From the NCBI GenBank assembly GCA_001464795.1, contig LNEB01000014.1, forward strand, positions 310,001 to 374,000: a stretch of DNA of 64,000 nucleotides. The letters are read 5' to 3'. A program made the translations under genes and the position numbers. The stretch is from Bdellovibrionales bacterium Ga0074139 (lineage in GTDB: Bacteria; Bdellovibrionota; Bdellovibrionia; Bdellovibrionales; Bdellovibrionaceae). This document shows positions 32,794 through 40,415 of the stretch, piece by piece (the stretch's first letter is position 1; each line of letters opens with the position of its first letter). The notes under the pieces were generated by a model. The model was not told the origin of the DNA and did not search any database. It was given only the letters and a program-made list of their open reading frames with translations.

Positions 32794-33621
32794 ATGATTA
32801 TGAAGCAAACTGAGAACGAGACTCTAACACAAAAGACAAAACCAGTTAAAGTTGGTAATCACCTGATTGGTGGCGATCACTTCACTCTTATTGCCGGCCC
32901 CTGTTCCATAGAAAATAAAGAACATTTTGAGCTGACCTCTAAGACAGTCAGGTCTTTAGGTGCTAATTTGATTCGTGGAGGAATTTGGAAGCTCCGTACT
33001 TCAGCAGATTCCTTTCAAGGTTTGGGAAAAGATTCATTTAATTTTATTCGCCAAACATTAAAAGAAAATAATCTAAGCTTAGTCAGCGAAATAACAGACC
33101 CACGGCAGATCGAAGAAATCCATGATTTTGTCGATATGTTTCAAATTGGCTCTCGTAATATGCATAATTATGCCCTTTTAAAAGAAGTGGGACTTACCCA
33201 AAAACCGGTGCTCATCAAGCGTGGCTTTGCAGCACTTATTGATGAATGGATTAAGTCCACCGAATATGTTCGTAAAGGTGGAAACGAAAATGTGATCCTT
33301 TGTGAACGTGGCATACGAACTTTTGAAACGGCGACTCGAAATACACTGGATTTAAATGCAGTCGTATACGTGAAAAATAGAACTCACTTGCCAGTTATCG
33401 TTGATCCCTCCCATGGCATTGGCATTCGTTCTTTAGTCCCTCAGATGGCCTATGCTGCTGCCGCTTCCGGCTGTGATGGTTTGATCATCGAAGTCCATCC
33501 CAACCCCGAAAAAGCCCTTTCCGACGGACAACAAACACTTAATTTTTCAGAGTTTGAAGTGCTCGTAAAACAACTGGAAAAAATATTAGATGCCATTGGC
33601 AGACCTTTGAGTAAAAATTAA
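32794..33621 (+). CDS. 3-deoxy-D-arabino-heptulosonate-7-phosphate synthase, type I-beta
   Basis: 275 residues: I-A-G-P-C-S-I-E-N, R-G-G-I-W-K-L-R-T, I-K-R-G-F, C-E-R-G-I-R-T-F, and D-P-S-H-G-I-G. These are the signs of the KDO8P-synthase-like class. It makes DAHP, the first metabolite of the shikimate pathway. It lacks an N-terminal ferredoxin-like or chorismate mutase domain, so feedback regulation by those domains is absent. It starts 65 bases from menF in the opposite direction, and heads an operon with menG, a PP-loop protein and a GNAT-like protein. Confidence 0.95.
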   Translation: MIMKQTENETLTQKTKPVKVGNHLIGGDHFTLIAGPCSIENKEHFELTSKTVRSLGANLIRGGIWKLRTSADSFQGLGKDSFNFIRQTLKENNLSLVSEITDPRQIEEIHDFVDMFQIGSRNMHNYALLKEVGLTQKPVLIKRGFAALIDEWIKSTEYVRKGGNENVILCERGIRTFETATRNTLDLNAVVYVKNRTHLPVIVDPSHGIGIRSLVPQMAYAAAASGCDGLIIEVHPNPEKALSDGQQTLNFSEFEVLVKQLEKILDAIGRPLSKN

Positions 33622-33623
33622 TC

Positions 33624-34331
33624 ATGAGTTACCAAGGGCCCAATCCTGATACCATCCGCAATATGTTTAAAAAAGTAGCCCCAGGCTACGACCGTGCTAA
33701 TAATATTTTGTCTGCTGGCATTCATCATCTTTGGCGAAAAAAAGTGGTTCAATTGGCTGAGGTACAAACAGGACAAAAAATTCTGGACTGTGCCACTGGC
33801 ACAGGTGATCTGGCCATTGAATTCAAAAAGTCTGTGGGACCCACCGGAGTTGTGATCGGCACTGATTTTTGCAAAGAAATGTTGGAAACAGCACCCACTA
33901 AATCAGAACAACAAAATCTTGATATTCAGTACAGCGTGGCGGATGTCATGAATCTTCCTTTCTCTGATTCTGAATTTGACCGCTCCAGTATTTCATTTGG
34001 CATTCGAAACGTGCAAGACCCATCAAAGGCAGTTCAAGAATTAGCACGAGTCGTAAAGCCCGGTGGAAGAATTCTTATTCTGGAATTCGGCCAAATGAAA
34101 ACACCCGTCATCAAAGATCTTTACAAGTTTTATTCTGACAAAATTCTGCCTTGGATGGGCGGGGTCGTTACAGGGCAAGGTGAAGCTTACGATTACTTAC
34201 AAAAATCTTCTGCTCAATTTCCCTGTCGCGAAGATTTTGTTGAGTTAATGAAAAAGGCTTACTCTTTTAAAAAAGTAGAGTTCTTTCCCGTTAGTTTCGG
34301 AATTGCCTATGTTTATATAGGGTATAAGTGA
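33624..34331 (+). CDS. ubiE: Demethylmenaquinone / ubiquinone C-methyltransferase
   Basis: 235 residues, class I SAM methyltransferase. Visible family motifs: N-M-F-K-K-V-A, Y-D-R-A-N, the SAM loop D-C-A-T-G-T-G-D-L, and the S-I-S-F-G-I-R-N-V motif. It adds the C-2 methyl of menaquinone (MenG/UbiE). The surrounding men genes indicate menaquinone. Only 2 bases separate it from the DAHP synthase gene, and its stop overlaps the next GTG (GTGA). Confidence 0.94.
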   Translation: MSYQGPNPDTIRNMFKKVAPGYDRANNILSAGIHHLWRKKVVQLAEVQTGQKILDCATGTGDLAIEFKKSVGPTGVVIGTDFCKEMLETAPTKSEQQNLDIQYSVADVMNLPFSDSEFDRSSISFGIRNVQDPSKAVQELARVVKPGGRILILEFGQMKTPVIKDLYKFYSDKILPWMGGVVTGQGEAYDYLQKSSAQFPCREDFVELMKKAYSFKKVEFFPVSFGIAYVYIGYK

Positions 34332-35260
34332 CTATCCCTGAATTGACTCATAAGAATCATTTTCAATTTGGCTATAACAATATTCCATTTAATTTTAGAA
34401 AAACTCCAGATGATAAATGGTTCGTCAGGTACGGTTCATGTGAACGACCACCACTGAATTTTCATGATGAGTGTTTGGCAACAGCCAAGTTAATAAGAAG
34501 CAAAACAAATCAATCTTTGCATGTCATGTTTTCAGGCGGAGTTGATTCTGAAGTTGCTTTAAGATCCTTTTATGAAAGTGAAATTCCTGTTGAAGCGGCT
34601 ATTTTAAGATACAAAAGTGACCTCAATATTCATGATGTCAGTTGGGCTATTGTCATTTGCGATAAGTTCAATATTCCTTATCGCATTTATGAACTGGATT
34701 TACTTGATTTCTGGAATCATAACGCCAATCAATTCGCAGAACTCACCTACTGCCCTTCACCACAATTACTTCCCACTATGTGGCTTATTGATCAGATTCC
34801 AGGCTATCCAATCATGGGAAGTGGAGAGTGTTTTTTAGTCAAAGAGAGACCCGATGATTATGTTCCAGGCGTAAGCCCCTATCTAAAATCAGATTGGATG
34901 CTTTGGGAAAAAGAAAAAATTGCTGCCTGGTACCGACACTTTATAATAAGAAACAGAGAAGGCTGCCCAGGTTTTTTTCAGTACACACCTGAAATAATGC
35001 TTTCATTTCTTCAGGATCCGTTTGTGCAAAATCTAATTCAAGATAAGATTGTAGGAAAATTAACCACAGAGTCTTCAAAATTTAAAATTTATCAGCAGCA
35101 TTTTGATTTAATTGAAAGGCCTAAATATACAGGCTTTGAAAAAGTTAAAACAGAAGATGCTAACTACCGTGAACAACTACTTAAAAAATTTGCTTACGCC
35201 AATGAAATATTTAAAACATCAACTGATGCTCTTCAAAAAATGTTAACTAATGAACACTGA
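34328..35260 (+). CDS. PP-loop (N-type ATP pyrophosphatase) protein of unknown function
   Basis: 310 residues from a GTG overlapping the ubiE stop. The clear motif is M-F-S-G-G-V-D-S-E at about residues 67-75, a PP-loop that adenylates a substrate with ATP, as in asparagine synthase, GuaA, QueC and tRNA thiolases. The rest has no known second domain and few cysteines, so thiolation is not obvious. It is followed by a GNAT-like gene with 11 bases overlap. The pair suggests a two-step amide or acyl modification of a small metabolite or tRNA (inference). I do not recognise a closer family. Confidence 0.75.
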   Translation: MTIPELTHKNHFQFGYNNIPFNFRKTPDDKWFVRYGSCERPPLNFHDECLATAKLIRSKTNQSLHVMFSGGVDSEVALRSFYESEIPVEAAILRYKSDLNIHDVSWAIVICDKFNIPYRIYELDLLDFWNHNANQFAELTYCPSPQLLPTMWLIDQIPGYPIMGSGECFLVKERPDDYVPGVSPYLKSDWMLWEKEKIAAWYRHFIIRNREGCPGFFQYTPEIMLSFLQDPFVQNLIQDKIVGKLTTESSKFKIYQQHFDLIERPKYTGFEKVKTEDANYREQLLKKFAYANEIFKTSTDALQKMLTNEH

Positions 35261-35873
35261 CCTCGAATTCCAATTTTTATCCCAAGATCATAAAGATGAA
35301 ATTGTTCAATTACGTCATAATGAATATAGAAAATACTACCAAGAAAAAGTGGATGTGGCTGGGCTTAACTGGAACAATGCTGATCGCACTTCTATTCACT
35401 TAGGAATTCGGAATATTAAAACTCAAAATCTGATCGCTTACTTGAGGCTGACTGGATTTCAATCAAAAGAAAAATTAGAGCTCACCACTCTTTTTGAAAC
35501 TCCGGCAAAGATTCAGCTGCCTGTGGCTCTGCTCACTCGAGCAGCTACGAATAGTGGCTATGAATCGAGAGGACTTCATAACATTCTTCGGTGCCGTGCA
35601 CTCGAAATCTGCCTGGAAAGAAAAATGATGACTTTGCTAGGCACCTTAGAGACTTCATCAAAGCGTTTTGATTCCCTTATGAAAATGGGCTACGAGGCTT
35701 TAGCCAGCAAAGAAAATTGGGGAAATCAGAGCTATATTCAAAGTAATCAAGGTGTAACCTTAATAGCATTAGTGGGTGAGGCTCGATTTAGGAATGCCAT
35801 TGATTACTACCAAGCTAAATACGCTCTACTACCGCTAGATAAAAAAACAATTCCTGATCTTGAATTTATTTAA
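35250..35873 (+). CDS. GNAT-fold protein resembling N-acyl amino acid / autoinducer synthases
   Basis: 207 residues. The region L-R-H-N-E-Y-R-K-Y-Y near the N-terminus, L-I-A-Y-L-R-L and T-R-A-A-T-N ... C-R-A-L-E-I-C, followed by a basic C-terminal strand-helix end, look like the fold of FeeM-like or LuxI-like acyltransferases. I cannot name a family. It converges with aroKDE and overlaps it by 8 bases. Overlap with the PP-loop gene suggests the two act together. Confidence 0.6.
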   Translation: MNTDLEFQFLSQDHKDEIVQLRHNEYRKYYQEKVDVAGLNWNNADRTSIHLGIRNIKTQNLIAYLRLTGFQSKEKLELTTLFETPAKIQLPVALLTRAATNSGYESRGLHNILRCRALEICLERKMMTLLGTLETSSKRFDSLMKMGYEALASKENWGNQSYIQSNQGVTLIALVGEARFRNAIDYYQAKYALLPLDKKTIPDLEFI

Positions 35874-37551
35874 TAAATTTTTGCCAGAACTTTTGCTGTG
35901 ACTTGGCCTGTACGTAAAACATCTCGAGCCCCGATTTATATTTTGCTTTAAAATGGATCGCAACTTCGCGTGCAACTGAGTTTTCAATGTAACTGAGATC
36001 TAATATCAGCTGGGGCTGCCAACGAGGGGGAATCAACTGCATGTCGGTCTGCCCGGCGGCCCAAATGATAACATCAGGATTTTCAATGTGAGCATAGCCC
36101 TGACGAGGCTTACCCGAACGAGCTGAATAAAAACTAGCATCTGGCAATTGGCCTTTTAGCATTTCTAAAAGACCACCGCCGCCCCAAACCACCACAGATT
36201 GATTAGCTAAATTTTTAGAAAAAGTAGCAAAGCCATCGATGTCTGTATTTTCTGATTTCCATGTTTGATTATCTCGGACCAGCGTATTTAATGCAGAATG
36301 TCCGACCCAATGCCCTGCTAAAGTTTTTAGTGGTGAAGTCACAGCTGCGAATCTTAGACCCCATTTTTCCAAAAGTGGTAGCGCTAGCTCCCACTCTTCT
36401 TCCGCTAGGTGGATCTTAAAAAAGGGAACTTCCGCATCGAGAAAAAACTTTTTATGAAAACTGGGTGAAAAGCTATGGTTAACTGGAGCACCCAAAACGG
36501 CTGCCATTCCATTTCTATTTTTATTTGGCATGGACAGCCACTGCCACAGAGTCGGCTGATCTAAATGCGAGTTGTCTCCGGTTCTTATGAAGTTGAGTGA
36601 CTGATGGCTTTTCATCATCAAGCGAAACCAATCCCATTTTCCGTCTAAAGATCTAGGTAAGAAATTTCTTTTACTAGGATCCACCTGTTGCCATTGAAAT
36701 CCCAATTCTAAATCAGTCCAAGACTCAACAAGGGGACAAAGCTTTAAATGATAATGACTTTTTTCAAAAGGTTTCAAAATTTGAATGGCTTGATGAATAG
36801 AGTCTTGATGAGTCGACAAGTAAAAAATTTGATTGAGTGCTGGCAAAGGCCTATTCAAATCCCAATCGATTGGATACTGATTAGCTTTTACAATCTCTGG
36901 AACATGGCCGTTTGTTCGAACCGAATAGAGGATTTTTTTATTTTTAAGATCAAATCTTTTGAACTCAGTTTCACTCAGCAAATCATCTCGCCATTCAAAG
37001 ACTGCATCTAAATTCACGATCGGAACTTGGGGCTTCAAAGTGAAGTAGGCTTGAACTGAAGTCTTACCAGTTAAAATTGCTTTTTCCTCTGGATCCACTT
37101 CATTCAAACCCTCTGGCATTGTGTAAATAAAATGGCAGTGTTTAGCATACATCATTTCACGCGGTTGAAATCTTTCATGATATTCATCCAAAGCAGACAG
37201 CTGAGAATTGAGCCTAGGACGATCTGTGAATATTCGCCCCGTTGAATCTGAGTCTCTACGAAGCCAAAGGACAAAAACATGATTTGGCATTTTTGATAAA
37301 TCAAAACCTGCTCCGCAGCTGATTACAGTATTTGCATTAGAATTTTTAATGAGTTCTAAAAATACTTGAATTTCGATTTCACGGAATTTTAATTCACCAA
37401 ATTTTTCAAAGTAGTCTGATATTTTATGACTCGTATGTTTTTCAATTTCTGAATCAAGATCAAAAAAATGAAGCTCTGGTTGATAAATTTTCCATCTTTG
37501 AAGAAGTGACGTTTTGCCGACACCTCGGTGACCGACTATGACTTTAATCAT
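35866..37551 (-). CDS. Trifunctional shikimate kinase / 3-dehydroquinase / shikimate dehydrogenase
   Basis: About 561 residues in three modules. AroK module (1-165): P-loop G-H-R-G-V-G-K-T, D-L-D-S-E, S-C-G-A-G, lid R-P-R-L. AroD type I module (about 180-340): E-W-R-D-D (E186, R188, D190), S-V-R-T, T-H (H248) and a candidate Schiff-base Lys (K270 in H-L-K-L-C). The last two are my alignment by eye. AroE module (about 348-561): G-A-P-V-N-H-S-F-S-P, V-T-S-P-L-K, N-T-D-I-D-G, G-G-G-G-L and Q near the end. The start is the ATG at 37551, which shares TAATG with the aroA stop and has AGGTGGGG just upstream. A start at 37581 would overlap aroA by 30 bases. Confidence 0.85.
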   Translation of the reverse strand: MIKVIVGHRGVGKTSLLQRWKIYQPELHFFDLDSEIEKHTSHKISDYFEKFGELKFREIEIQVFLELIKNSNANTVISCGAGFDLSKMPNHVFVLWLRRDSDSTGRIFTDRPRLNSQLSALDEYHERFQPREMMYAKHCHFIYTMPEGLNEVDPEEKAILTGKTSVQAYFTLKPQVPIVNLDAVFEWRDDLLSETEFKRFDLKNKKILYSVRTNGHVPEIVKANQYPIDWDLNRPLPALNQIFYLSTHQDSIHQAIQILKPFEKSHYHLKLCPLVESWTDLELGFQWQQVDPSKRNFLPRSLDGKWDWFRLMMKSHQSLNFIRTGDNSHLDQPTLWQWLSMPNKNRNGMAAVLGAPVNHSFSPSFHKKFFLDAEVPFFKIHLAEEEWELALPLLEKWGLRFAAVTSPLKTLAGHWVGHSALNTLVRDNQTWKSENTDIDGFATFSKNLANQSVVVWGGGGLLEMLKGQLPDASFYSARSGKPRQGYAHIENPDVIIWAAGQTDMQLIPPRWQPQLILDLSYIENSVAREVAIHFKAKYKSGLEMFYVQAKSQQKFWQKFIK

Positions 37552-38717
37552 TAACCTGCCCCACCTGAAATGAGATTCCAAAAACCAGGAAAACTTTTAT
37601 TAACAACTTCTGGGTTTGTAATTCGCAAGCGATAACCCATGGATTTTGCCACAGCTGCTGCAAATGCTAAGCGATGATCATGATCAGGCTGATAAAGAAA
37701 AAATTGATGATGATGATACTTCTTACCAGTGATACGAATTCCACCTTCCAAGACTTGATGTTTAACTTGCATCAAGGAAAGTAATTCACTGATTTTGGCC
37801 AACCGATTGGATTCCTTATAAACAAGCTGAGGAGTATCAAAAATTTCACTGACCCCGTCACACTTAGAAAGGAGTACACATAACACAGGAAATAAATCTG
37901 GACAGTTATTAAGGCTAACCTTTACAGGATTCCATTGGCTCGATCTGCTTATTTTTAAGTGTCCATTGACGAGATCTGTTGGAATACCAATTTTTTTAAA
38001 AATTTCAACGAAAGCGACATCAGGCTGCAAGCTTTTCAAGTCAAAAGGATAAAGATCACAGGATCCACGAATAGCCGCTAAAGCCGCCACTGCGAAGGCC
38101 GAGCTAATATCTTGCTCAACTGTCACTTTGCTAGCTTTTAATTTTTGCAATTTTGAAACAGATATTCCTGATTCTGTTTTTTTATACTCAAATCCTACAG
38201 AACTTAATAATTGAAGGGTCATTTCTAAATATCCGTCAGAGACTCTGTTTTCAGAAAACTGAATTTGAATTGGCTTTTCCATATCCCAGCAACACAATAA
38301 AAATCCAGACGCAAATTGACTGCTTTTTGATAAATCGATTGTGATTTGATCAGGCAGCTTCCATCCACTGGAATGAAGATTTAATGAGTTTTGATCAAAA
38401 GTGGCAGACACATTGAGTTGACGAAATAAATCCAGCAAGGGATCAAGTGGCCGAGAAAAAAGTCTTTCACTTCCACGAAGTTTCCAGATTCCAGGCCTTT
38501 TTGACAACATGATGGCCAAAAACCGAAAAGTGGTTCCACCCTCACCAACAAAAAACTCTGATCCCGTCGTTTGCAGAGCTTTTTGTAAATGAAGAACATC
38601 ATCGCTTGAAGATTGTCCTTCTATTTCCAGTTGTGGATACTGGGCTTGCAAAATCAGGGCTCTGTTCATCAGTGATTTGGAAGCTTCGACTGAACCCTTG
38701 AAACTAAAGCTCTTCAT
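37551..38717 (-). CDS. aroA: 3-phosphoshikimate 1-carboxyvinyltransferase (EPSP synthase)
   Basis: About 388 residues. Adds enolpyruvyl to shikimate-3-phosphate. V-E-A-S-K-S-L-M-N-R-A-L-I (the P-E-K-S-x-T-N-R site), G-E-G-G-T-T-F-R-F-L, S-S-Q-F-A-S-G, and D-H-R-L-A-F-A-A-A are present. It is somewhat shorter than usual (about 420). I chose the ATG at 38717, with GGAG four bases ahead, over the start at 38756. It overlaps the aroB stop by 14 bases and touches aroKDE by TAATG. Confidence 0.93.
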   Translation of the reverse strand: MKSFSFKGSVEASKSLMNRALILQAQYPQLEIEGQSSSDDVLHLQKALQTTGSEFFVGEGGTTFRFLAIMLSKRPGIWKLRGSERLFSRPLDPLLDLFRQLNVSATFDQNSLNLHSSGWKLPDQITIDLSKSSQFASGFLLCCWDMEKPIQIQFSENRVSDGYLEMTLQLLSSVGFEYKKTESGISVSKLQKLKASKVTVEQDISSAFAVAALAAIRGSCDLYPFDLKSLQPDVAFVEIFKKIGIPTDLVNGHLKISRSSQWNPVKVSLNNCPDLFPVLCVLLSKCDGVSEIFDTPQLVYKESNRLAKISELLSLMQVKHQVLEGGIRITGKKYHHHQFFLYQPDHDHRLAFAAAVAKSMGYRLRITNPEVVNKSFPGFWNLISGGAG

Positions 38718-39750
38718 AGAGCTCCTGCAAAGTTCTTTGTTGCCTTCTGTATTCACGAAGAATGTCTTCCATTGGAACTTTTTTAATCAAAACTTTTCCG
38801 GGCTTTTCTACTAAAGTGAAACTGATCAATCCCTGCTTGTTTTTTTTATCTTTGATTAAGTAAGAACGAATTTTAGCCTCTGTTAGGCTATAAATCTTTA
38901 AATCTGTTTTCTTTTTAAACTCTTCATCCCAAACGTAAGACCACGGCATTTCATCCATTAAATCAAAGGCTCTTTGGGGACTAAGAAGTTTAAGTTGTAC
39001 ACTCCAGGCTATATCAAATAAGAGACCGTGAAAAATGGCAAGACCATGAGGGATTCCAAAATGGGCTTCCCAAACATGTCCCAAAGTATGTCCCAGATTC
39101 AGTTGATAACGGAATCCTTTTTTCTCGAAAGGGTCTTGCTTCACAATTTTATATTTTAATTCGATAAAGCTTTTTAAATCAGACCAGCGAATTTTTCCAG
39201 CTTTCCAATTCCAAGATTGAAGCTTTTTAAGCAAAGATTCTCCGCCGATAATAGCAGTTTTCATAAACTCACCACTGGCTTCAAAAAGTCGAATGGCTGG
39301 CTGAGTTTCTAGCACGGCTTGAATCACCCACACTTCTTCTGAAAAGTGATAGGTTCCAATTTGATTTTTAAAACCACCCACATTCATGGCTGTTTTTCCA
39401 CCATGGGCTGAATCCAAAGCTGAAAGCCAAGTTGTAGGAATTTGTACGACGGGTATTCCCCTTTTAAATATAGAGGCCACAAATCCACCGAAATCACCCA
39501 CACTTCCTCCACCTAAAATATAAATTTTCTGTGCAAAAGAAAAATTTTTAATAAGGTGTTCAAGATGGGATGGAAGTTGATCGATACTTTTTAACTTTTC
39601 TCCTGATTTAACCGCATATCGAGAAGGAAATGTTTCAATCCATTTTTTAATCAACGGGATCTTCATTAAATATTGATCATAAATTAATAGTTCCGAATGA
39701 TGATTTTTCATGACTGGAAGTTTTTTTAAAATTTTAATTTTTGTTTTCAA
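38704..39750 (-). CDS. aroB: 3-dehydroquinate synthase
   Basis: 348 residues. Converts DAHP to dehydroquinate. Motifs: G-G-G-S-V-G-D-F-G-G-F-V-A, R-G-I-P-V-V-Q-I-P-T-T, D-S-A-H-G-G-K-T-A, and a zinc-type segment N-L-G-H-T-L-G-H. The N-terminal part is slightly short. The start overlaps the ung stop by 4 bases. It is the first of the three aro genes and is followed with overlap by aroA. Confidence 0.93.
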   Translation of the reverse strand: MKTKIKILKKLPVMKNHHSELLIYDQYLMKIPLIKKWIETFPSRYAVKSGEKLKSIDQLPSHLEHLIKNFSFAQKIYILGGGSVGDFGGFVASIFKRGIPVVQIPTTWLSALDSAHGGKTAMNVGGFKNQIGTYHFSEEVWVIQAVLETQPAIRLFEASGEFMKTAIIGGESLLKKLQSWNWKAGKIRWSDLKSFIELKYKIVKQDPFEKKGFRYQLNLGHTLGHVWEAHFGIPHGLAIFHGLLFDIAWSVQLKLLSPQRAFDLMDEMPWSYVWDEEFKKKTDLKIYSLTEAKIRSYLIKDKKNKQGLISFTLVEKPGKVLIKKVPMEDILREYRRQQRTLQELYEEL

Positions 39751-40415
39751 GAAAGTCTCCAGTCGATGGGGGCTTGATGGGTTTTAACTAAATATTCATT
39801 AATTTTAGAAAATGGTCGGCTACCAAAAAAACCACGGTAAGAAGAAAGTGGGGAAGGATGGGAACTTTGTAAAATGAAATGACGATTAGAATCGATATAA
39901 GCTCCCTTTTTCTGAGCGTAGGCTCCCCAGAGAACAAAAACAAGATTTTGCCTTTCTTGATTCAAGACTGTGATGATTTTATCAGTGAATTTTTCCCAGC
40001 CCTGATTTTGATGTGAACCAGGTAAACTCTGTCTAACGGTAAGAACTGAATTTAAAAGAAGCACTCCCTGCTGGGCCCAAGGGCTTAGGTTTCCTGTTTT
40101 TGGCATGGGCAAACTTAAATCACTTTGGAGCTCTTTGAAAATATTTAAAAGTGAGGGTGGTTTTGCAACCTGATCGGGCACTGAAAAAGATAAGCCATGG
40201 GCTTGACCTGGACCATGGTAGGGGTCTTGACCTAGAATAACAACTTTCACTTTTTCAAATGGCGTTTCATTGAGGGCTTGAAATATTTTTTGTGATTCAG
40301 GATAGATGATTGATTTTTCGCTTAAAAGAAACTGATTCAGTTGGATCATATAGTCCAGGTCGAATTCAGAGCCAATCCTTTGCAGCCAAGAGTTTTCAAG
40401 TTGTTTTTTAATCAT
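39747..40415 (-). CDS. ung: Uracil-DNA glycosylase, family 1
   Basis: 222 residues with the catalytic G-Q-D-P-Y-H-G (water-activating Asp), S-F-S-V, L-L-N-S-V-L-T-V-R and the H-P-S-P-L-S-S-Y-R leucine-loop region. It removes uracil from DNA. It is the first gene of the aro operon and overlaps aroB by 4 bases. A functional link to the shikimate pathway is unlikely; the overlap points to shared transcription only. Confidence 0.96.
   Translation of the reverse strand: MIKKQLENSWLQRIGSEFDLDYMIQLNQFLLSEKSIIYPESQKIFQALNETPFEKVKVVILGQDPYHGPGQAHGLSFSVPDQVAKPPSLLNIFKELQSDLSLPMPKTGNLSPWAQQGVLLLNSVLTVRQSLPGSHQNQGWEKFTDKIITVLNQERQNLVFVLWGAYAQKKGAYIDSNRHFILQSSHPSPLSSYRGFFGSRPFSKINEYLVKTHQAPIDWRLS

Follow-up and report, generated by a model that had tools for sequence, protein, structure and literature searches.

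A 64,000-nucleotide stretch of contig LNEB01000014.1 from Bdellovibrionales bacterium Ga0074139 (the window, in whose coordinates all positions are given) carries on its minus strand aroB, aroA and a fused aroK-aroD-aroE gene (aroKDE; product, KDE), that is, the order AroB-AroA-AroK-AroD-AroE given for the eukaryotic AROM protein in the accessible text of PMC6851490. We consider it likely that this locus is an independent bacterial assembly in AROM order, a coupled operon ending in a fusion with three predicted catalytic activities. The aroB frame (3-dehydroquinate synthase, 38704–39750, minus strand) matches TIGR01357 (8.8e-65) and the Pfam families DHQ_synthase (1.5e-28) and DHQS_C (3.3e-17), with an uncertain TTG start at 39750 and an ATG further downstream. 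Next comes aroA (EPSP synthase, 37551–38717, minus strand), which starts with ATG at 38717 and matches TIGR01356 (1.8e-62) and PF00275 (9.7e-45); both identifications are clear, although the TIGR01357 and TIGR01356 scores lie below the NCBI equivalog cut-offs. The third gene, aroKDE (35866–37551, minus strand), is single-copy in the genome and encodes 561 residues comprising a shikimate kinase, a type I-like dehydroquinase and a shikimate dehydrogenase. The first two genes overlap by 14 bases (38704–38717, minus strand), and aroA and aroKDE meet in a TAATG (37549–37553, minus strand) in which the stop codon TAA (37553–37551) and the start codon ATG (37551–37549) have one base in common. The original prediction described the genes, their strand, their positions and the two overlaps correctly, and its proposal that the third gene is a three-domain fusion completing the AROM order is borne out by the domain and profile evidence below.

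For the middle of KDE (about residues 167–341; 36529–37053, minus strand), neither Pfam nor NCBIfam gives a family match. When its profile was aligned by hhalign to that of standard type I dehydroquinases, the two matched with a probability of 95.6 and an E value of 1.1e-8, and unrelated AroA and AroE profiles used as controls gave a probability of 0.1. In an alignment of 43 relatives from the sampled Bdellovibrionota genomes, Glu186, Arg188, Asp190, Arg212, Ser246, His248, Lys270, Arg310 and Gln332 are invariant (43/43 rows); among them, Glu186, Arg188, Arg212, His248, Lys270 and Gln332 pair with Glu46, Arg48, Arg82, His143, Lys170 and Gln236 of E. coli AroD, and Arg310 falls two columns from its Arg213. 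We take Lys170 to be the Schiff-base lysine of the E. coli enzyme and His143 its catalytic histidine. An AlphaFold model of the middle domain alone (predicted local distance difference test [pLDDT] score, 91.5; predicted template modeling [pTM] score, 0.87) has the TIM-barrel fold of the type I dehydroquinase family: in the structural comparison, rows 1–36 are all dehydroquinases or proteins that contain one (Z = 15.2 to 11.8), with unrelated barrels appearing from Z = 10.3 downward, and Foldseek places an archaeal dehydroquinase (2ox1) first with E = 4.6e-4, the sole match below 0.001. The idea that the middle domain is absent is thus overturned, despite the Pfam and NCBIfam misses, by the profile-profile alignment, the single-domain model and the fold comparisons. 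What emerges is a genuine and compact domain, a divergent member of the type I dehydroquinases, making the third gene AroK-AroD-AroE, with predicted catalysis. A sensitive hidden Markov model search for AroD, the check suggested with the original prediction, accordingly had a split outcome, empty against the family libraries and positive in profile-profile and structure comparison.

The two ends of KDE are more conventional. The AroK domain (residues 1–165; 37057–37551, minus strand) matches PF01202 at residues 9–143 (2.4e-15; 57.4 bits, compared with a cut-off of 22.1), aligns structurally with the shikimate kinase of Mycobacterium tuberculosis (Z about 17), and keeps G7, G10, G12, K13, D33, R57, R111 and R131 invariant in the 43-row alignment, the motifs looked for being the Walker A, DxD and arginine motifs that we take to be typical of shikimate kinases. 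The AroE domain (about residues 342–561; 35869–36528, minus strand) matches TIGR00507 at residues 350–460 (9.2e-14, below the cut-off), a match that covers its N-terminal half; the Pfam AroE substrate domain is likewise found only below the cut-off, shikimate kinase alone scoring above it in the fused protein. Structural comparison returns AroE rows with Z up to 20.7, and S360, K409, N422, D437 and Q548, invariant in all 43 rows, are the putative counterparts of the substrate-site residues of AroE (Ser, Lys65, Asn86, Asp102 and Gln244).

A model of the entire KDE protein built from the same alignment has high confidence (pLDDT 93.3, pTM 0.91). AROM chains occupy ranks 1–8 in a Foldseek search with this model (E = 3.9e-21 to 4.5e-12), followed by the Arabidopsis dehydroquinase-shikimate dehydrogenase, but they fit with a root-mean-square deviation of 17.9 to 19.1 Å, that is, domain by domain. 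We therefore discarded these ranks as evidence of kinship, as they sum the scores of three domains standing in the same order. Single KDE domains resemble AROM no more closely than they do free-standing enzymes, and the packing of AroD against AroE in the model has no rigid-body fit to AROM. The pair does superpose as one body on Arabidopsis DHQ-SDH (2o7s; 384 residues, 3.5 Å, Z = 18.8), so the model predicts a plant-like packing of these two domains, which act in consecutive steps.

Among the Bdellovibrionota, KDE turned up in 56 of the 191 genomes sampled, including all 29 from the family of the window; Bdellovibrio bacteriovorus (strain kdesi, L053) belongs to the KDE-bearing lineage. The figure of 56 is a hand count that requires the K and E parts to lie in one open frame; two of the 56 genomes (G081 and G087) have a TGA within a matched piece. 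In the Myxococcota it occurs in 17 of 188 genomes, of the Bradymonadales type, and a scan of 57 genomes from a single class, a set that overlaps the 188, found it in 18; this class includes Lujinxingia vulgaris (Bradymonadales; L129); in 16 of the 18 the match extends over the whole model and in 2 it is cut, and 2 further genomes hold fragments only. Two KDE-bearing metagenome-assembled genomes, L105 and L076, are titled Myxococcales and Planctomycetota; the title of L105 may be wrong, because the trees of both AroK and AroE place it among the Bdellovibrionota. Family searches, which for type I and type II dehydroquinases each gave matches in 7 of 14 control genomes, found type II dehydroquinase in 72 of the 191 Bdellovibrionota and Pfam-level type I in 4, but no KDE genome, that of the window included, has either of them. 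The mutual exclusion of KDE and type II dehydroquinase has a Fisher p value of 4e-15, uncorrected for relatedness. Because Pfam and NCBIfam both overlook the dehydroquinase domain, the pathway would look incomplete in such genomes, and KDE shows how annotation can misjudge a pathway. By hand count, 45 of the 56 genomes have aroC immediately after KDE, on the same strand and less than 150 bases away (9 have it elsewhere, and in 2, that of the window among them, it was not found), making aroB-aroA-aroKDE-aroC the usual operon.

The survey of other genomes for the same order, also suggested with the original prediction, found B, A, KDE more often than any other arrangement at the related loci, in 61 of 120 wide loci and another 4 that have little upstream DNA, so that its occurrence in the window is more than chance. 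It should be noted that the locus counts include some genomes twice (e.g., L033 with L054 and L050 with L106) and that L092 is listed as B|KDE|A merely because frames were sorted by start, its true order being B, A, KDE. Where aroA and KDE are separate genes, they overlap by 1 or 4 bases in 75 of 108 loci and lie at most 30 bases apart in 101 of 108, a spacing that, as judged from sequence, is compatible with translational coupling. B stands beside KDE without an intervening A in 7 of the 120 loci (L041, L047, L064, L082, L128, L084 and L079), A being found behind KDE in L084 and further upstream in L079.

Further joints of the order are fused in some relatives. Seven loci have A-K-D-E in one frame, and an eighth has A-K-D up to the end of the contig; together they represent seven genomes. 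The junctions between A and K are short, with 2 to 9 residues separating the profile ends. The L033 protein has Pfam matches to EPSP synthase, shikimate kinase and the AroE substrate domain; that of L104 matches the first two as well, its AroE substrate domain scoring below the cut-off. The A-K fusion appears in three places of a quick tree, and several independent fusions were considered as an explanation, but holding the seven fusions together gives a likelihood higher by 4.72 (p-AU 0.565 in the approximately unbiased [AU] test), and this explanation is rejected for now. Because families f1 (G174) and f13 (G137 and G081) have both fused and unfused members, the state must have changed, or the genes been transferred, more than once. 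A B-A fusion is found in 7 Bradymonadales-type genomes, namely 5 of the 5 that were searched for both families and 2 others in which it lies beside KDE. It directly precedes KDE, with gaps of 23, 26 and 100 bases, in 3 of the 13 Bradymonadales-type KDE genomes that have at least 2.6 kb of upstream DNA, and three B-A proteins (766–779 residues) match both Pfam DHQ synthase models as well as EPSP synthase. One bacterium or another thus has each of the AROM joints fused: B-A, A-K and K-D-E. A five-domain fusion was found in none of the 191 Bdellovibrionota, the 188 Myxococcota or the 57 genomes of one class, in a search of these two phyla that screened the retrieved loci for the length of their open frames and for their domains; a scan of named genomes, made with a single pattern, covered the best 80 loci.

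AROM order is not the only one possible, since the same two phyla hold many others, among them B|DE|A|K, B|DE|A, B|DEK, D|EK|A, A|EK|B and B|D|EK|A. Loci with other aro fusions (L300 in G026, L299 in G058, L189 and L200 in G007, and L164, L165, L173–L175 and L178) have D adjoining E-K, or A, E-K and B in a row, or K-B in one frame, the last in several Myxococcota. In Bradymonadales-type genomes with the B-A fusion, another AroB-like domain ends an open frame of 624–648 residues (L183, L185, L187 and L188).

The question of descent was addressed with trees of the five domains, built from fungal AROM fragments from the PDB (3 rows for AroB, 2 each for AroA, AroK and AroD, and 3 for AroE), E. coli, some further bacteria (between 1 and 5 in each tree from other phyla) and the sampled genomes, with one plant sequence in the AroA and AroD trees only. 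The AROM sample is wholly fungal, and its AroE rows cover 49% of the columns; the AroD row labeled AROM_Sp is 5swu, titled A. fumigatus, and the AroE row of that label is 5swv, from S. pombe. Loci whose domain covers less than 55% of the profile were excluded, which reduced the Bdellovibrionota AroB rows to 14, and the 24 listed tree loci were hand-picked for diversity. In all five trees, the KDE lineage of Bdellovibrionota and Bradymonadales-type bacteria forms one clade with fungal AROM outside. Support for this clade is 100/99 for AroB, where AROM groups with five Myxococcota sequences from other aro arrangements (99/95), and 100/98 for AroA, where AROM falls in a group (100/98) with a single Myxococcota sequence and those of the plant and E. 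coli. For both domains, the AU test rejects a tree that joins AROM to the KDE lineage (p-AU 0.0143 for AroB and 0.0132 for AroA). The clade has support of 100/99 in each of the AroK and AroE trees, and the AroD tree, a quick one made without an AU test, agrees. As the five genes share one history, the cluster must be old in both bacterial groups or have been passed on as a unit. In pairwise scores, the lowest of the group-best values for a fungal AROM domain belongs to the KDE-lineage or the Bradymonadales-type group in 12 of 12 cases; because low scores could reflect fast evolution, it is the trees that carry the argument. The Myxococcota AroB sequences that group with fungal AROM come from L292–L298 (G195, G196, G202, G306 and G313), with B|DE|A|K, DEK, EK or DE arrangements, and this group is, with thin sampling, a possible lead on the source of the AroB of AROM.

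We propose that the three genes would cover the shikimate pathway from step 2 to step 6 in AROM order, the third specifying a single trifunctional protein that acts as shikimate kinase, as dehydroquinase and as shikimate dehydrogenase. The overlapping stop and start codons may couple translation such that the enzymes would be co-produced in similar amounts, to the presumed benefit of the cell, while the fusion would fix the ratio of the consecutive steps 3 (AroD) and 4 (AroE). The B-A-KDE cluster would derive from an ancestor common to Bdellovibrionota and Bradymonadales-type bacteria, or have been passed between them; its descendants would then have fused more neighbors, A to KDE in some Bdellovibrionota and B to A in the Bradymonadales type, and eukaryotic AROM would have arrived at the same order separately. 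Several observations weigh against this account. The residue of KDE aligned with Glu86 of E. coli AroD, to which we ascribe a catalytic role, is His216, and we call the middle domain divergent type I-like because Glu86 is not kept. No chorismate synthase (aroC) match was found in the genome of the window (G000, 97% complete), so that the pathway may break at its last step, or aroC may lie in the missing 3%. More generally, catalysis by the encoded enzymes is a prediction. On the side of descent, a joint clade with AROM is not rejected for AroK (p-AU 0.408) or AroE (p-AU 0.459), and the second-best score of the Chaetomium AroK is with a Bradymonadales-type AroK. Finally, the A-K fusion may have arisen more than once, gains and losses being indistinguishable.

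The first two of these points, together with the lack of a Pfam or NCBIfam match, would fit the alternative that the middle domain is a dead remnant and KDE a kinase and dehydrogenase only, dehydroquinate being dehydrated by another enzyme or coming from prey. We regard this as improbable, as the counterparts of Glu46, Arg48, Arg82, His143, Lys170 and Gln236 are kept in all 43 relatives, the fold is modeled with high confidence and the 56 KDE genomes show no other dehydroquinase. A different possibility is that AROM itself descends from a B-A-KDE operon of this bacterial lineage, transferred to an early eukaryote in which the remaining joints were then fused. The identity of the order over five domains, the fusion of every joint in some bacterium, the eight AROM chains at the head of the Foldseek list and the AU results for AroK and AroE would all fit such a history. 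Fungal AROM nevertheless lies outside in five trees, the joint clade fails the AU test in the case of AroB and AroA, the Foldseek ranks reflect domain order, free-standing enzymes match the single domains as well, and the AroD-AroE packing is that of the plant enzyme and not of AROM; we consider this descent very improbable overall, and for the K and E parts, where the AU tests fail to reject it, disfavored rather than excluded. The suggestion in the original prediction that the locus is an intermediate in, or relic of, the order that gave rise to AROM is thus unsupported, its check by grouping with AROM having gone against a joint clade for two domains and for neither outcome in AroK and AroE, and independent convergence, another of its three readings, coincides with the one preferred here.

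There remains the matter of whether the shared order means anything. The locus may be an ordinary operon with a domain fusion whose agreement with AROM is a coincidence without selective meaning, a reading that we find rather unlikely but worth serious attention: other orders are common in both phyla, five domains sharing a strand can be arranged in 120 ways, of which this is one, and any functional reason for this order would be hypothetical. Against it, the order is kept across much of a phylum, and other joints have been fused without rearrangement. AROM order occurs in two separate histories and may be either selected or coincidental. Within the preferred account of independent assembly, a tentative extension is that bacteria are building AROM again, joint by joint, with B-A fused in the Bradymonadales type, A-K in some Bdellovibrionota and K-D-E in both, in which case the order itself would be favored by the joint working or the assembly of the enzymes. 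Bolder still is the thought that the K-D-E block of AROM might share its origin with the bacterial K-D-E fusion, AroB and AroA having come from elsewhere.

Among known systems, the AROM proteins of fungi and protists (6hqv, 7u5s, 7tbv and 5swv) share with the locus the five enzymes, their order and a type I dehydroquinase, and KDE aligns along their K-D-E part; the window, however, has three chains instead of one, the most fused relatives being A-K-D-E or B-A plus K-D-E, and differs in the clade of its AroB and AroA and in the plant-like modeled packing. The Arabidopsis enzyme (2o7s and 2gpt) has the same order and placement of AroD and AroE but no kinase domain, and its AroD has the full length of a standard type I dehydroquinase. 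As far as the accessible portions of the reports describe them, the Clostridia DHQD-SK (PMC10792529) and Herbaspirillum AroL-AroB (PMC7311316) proteins are also bacterial fusions of shikimate enzymes, but with two domains in other orders, whereas the fusions here have three and four in AROM order. The DE, EK, DEK and KB fusions of Bdellovibrionota and Myxococcota combine the same enzymes in neighboring phyla, yet in other orders; their AroD, where present, is standard and detectable by profile, and the KDE clade does not include their AroB, AroK or AroE. In the accessible text of PMC10792529, the group behind the AROM structure calls its origin a long-standing enigma, and a systematic search presents bifunctional prokaryotic fusions as exceptions; PMC3018139 describes profiles for the shikimate pathway with aroM among the templates, and the word Bdellovibrio is absent from its accessible part; and Bradymonabacteria are described in the portion available of PMC7460792 as lacking complete synthesis of Trp, Tyr and Phe. 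The overlooked AroD domain may conceivably contribute to that picture. We found no report of KDE, AKDE or BA fusions in a literature coverage that mostly left out subscription papers. The KDE and AKDE fusions are a new variant among shikimate fusion enzymes, and these tri- and tetrafunctional members in AROM order offer a natural partial-fusion series for testing channeling, co-folding and the order of the domains.

Upstream of the operon, ung (uracil-DNA glycosylase, 39747–40415, minus strand; TIGR00628, 1.5e-78) overlaps aroB, whose first codon overlaps the ung stop; ung is probably on the same transcript as the aro genes, though outside the pathway. A gene for DAHP synthase, the first step of the pathway (32794–33621, plus strand; TIGR01361, 3.2e-101, above the cut-off), lies 2.2 kb from the end of the aro operon on the opposite strand. 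The slot behind KDE in which relatives carry aroC is occupied in the window by a convergent gene (35250–35873, plus strand), which adjoins and overlaps another (34328–35260, plus strand); NCBIfam gives no match for either, and the product of the latter has an SGGVDSE motif that, in our judgment, resembles those of PP-loop ATP pyrophosphatases.

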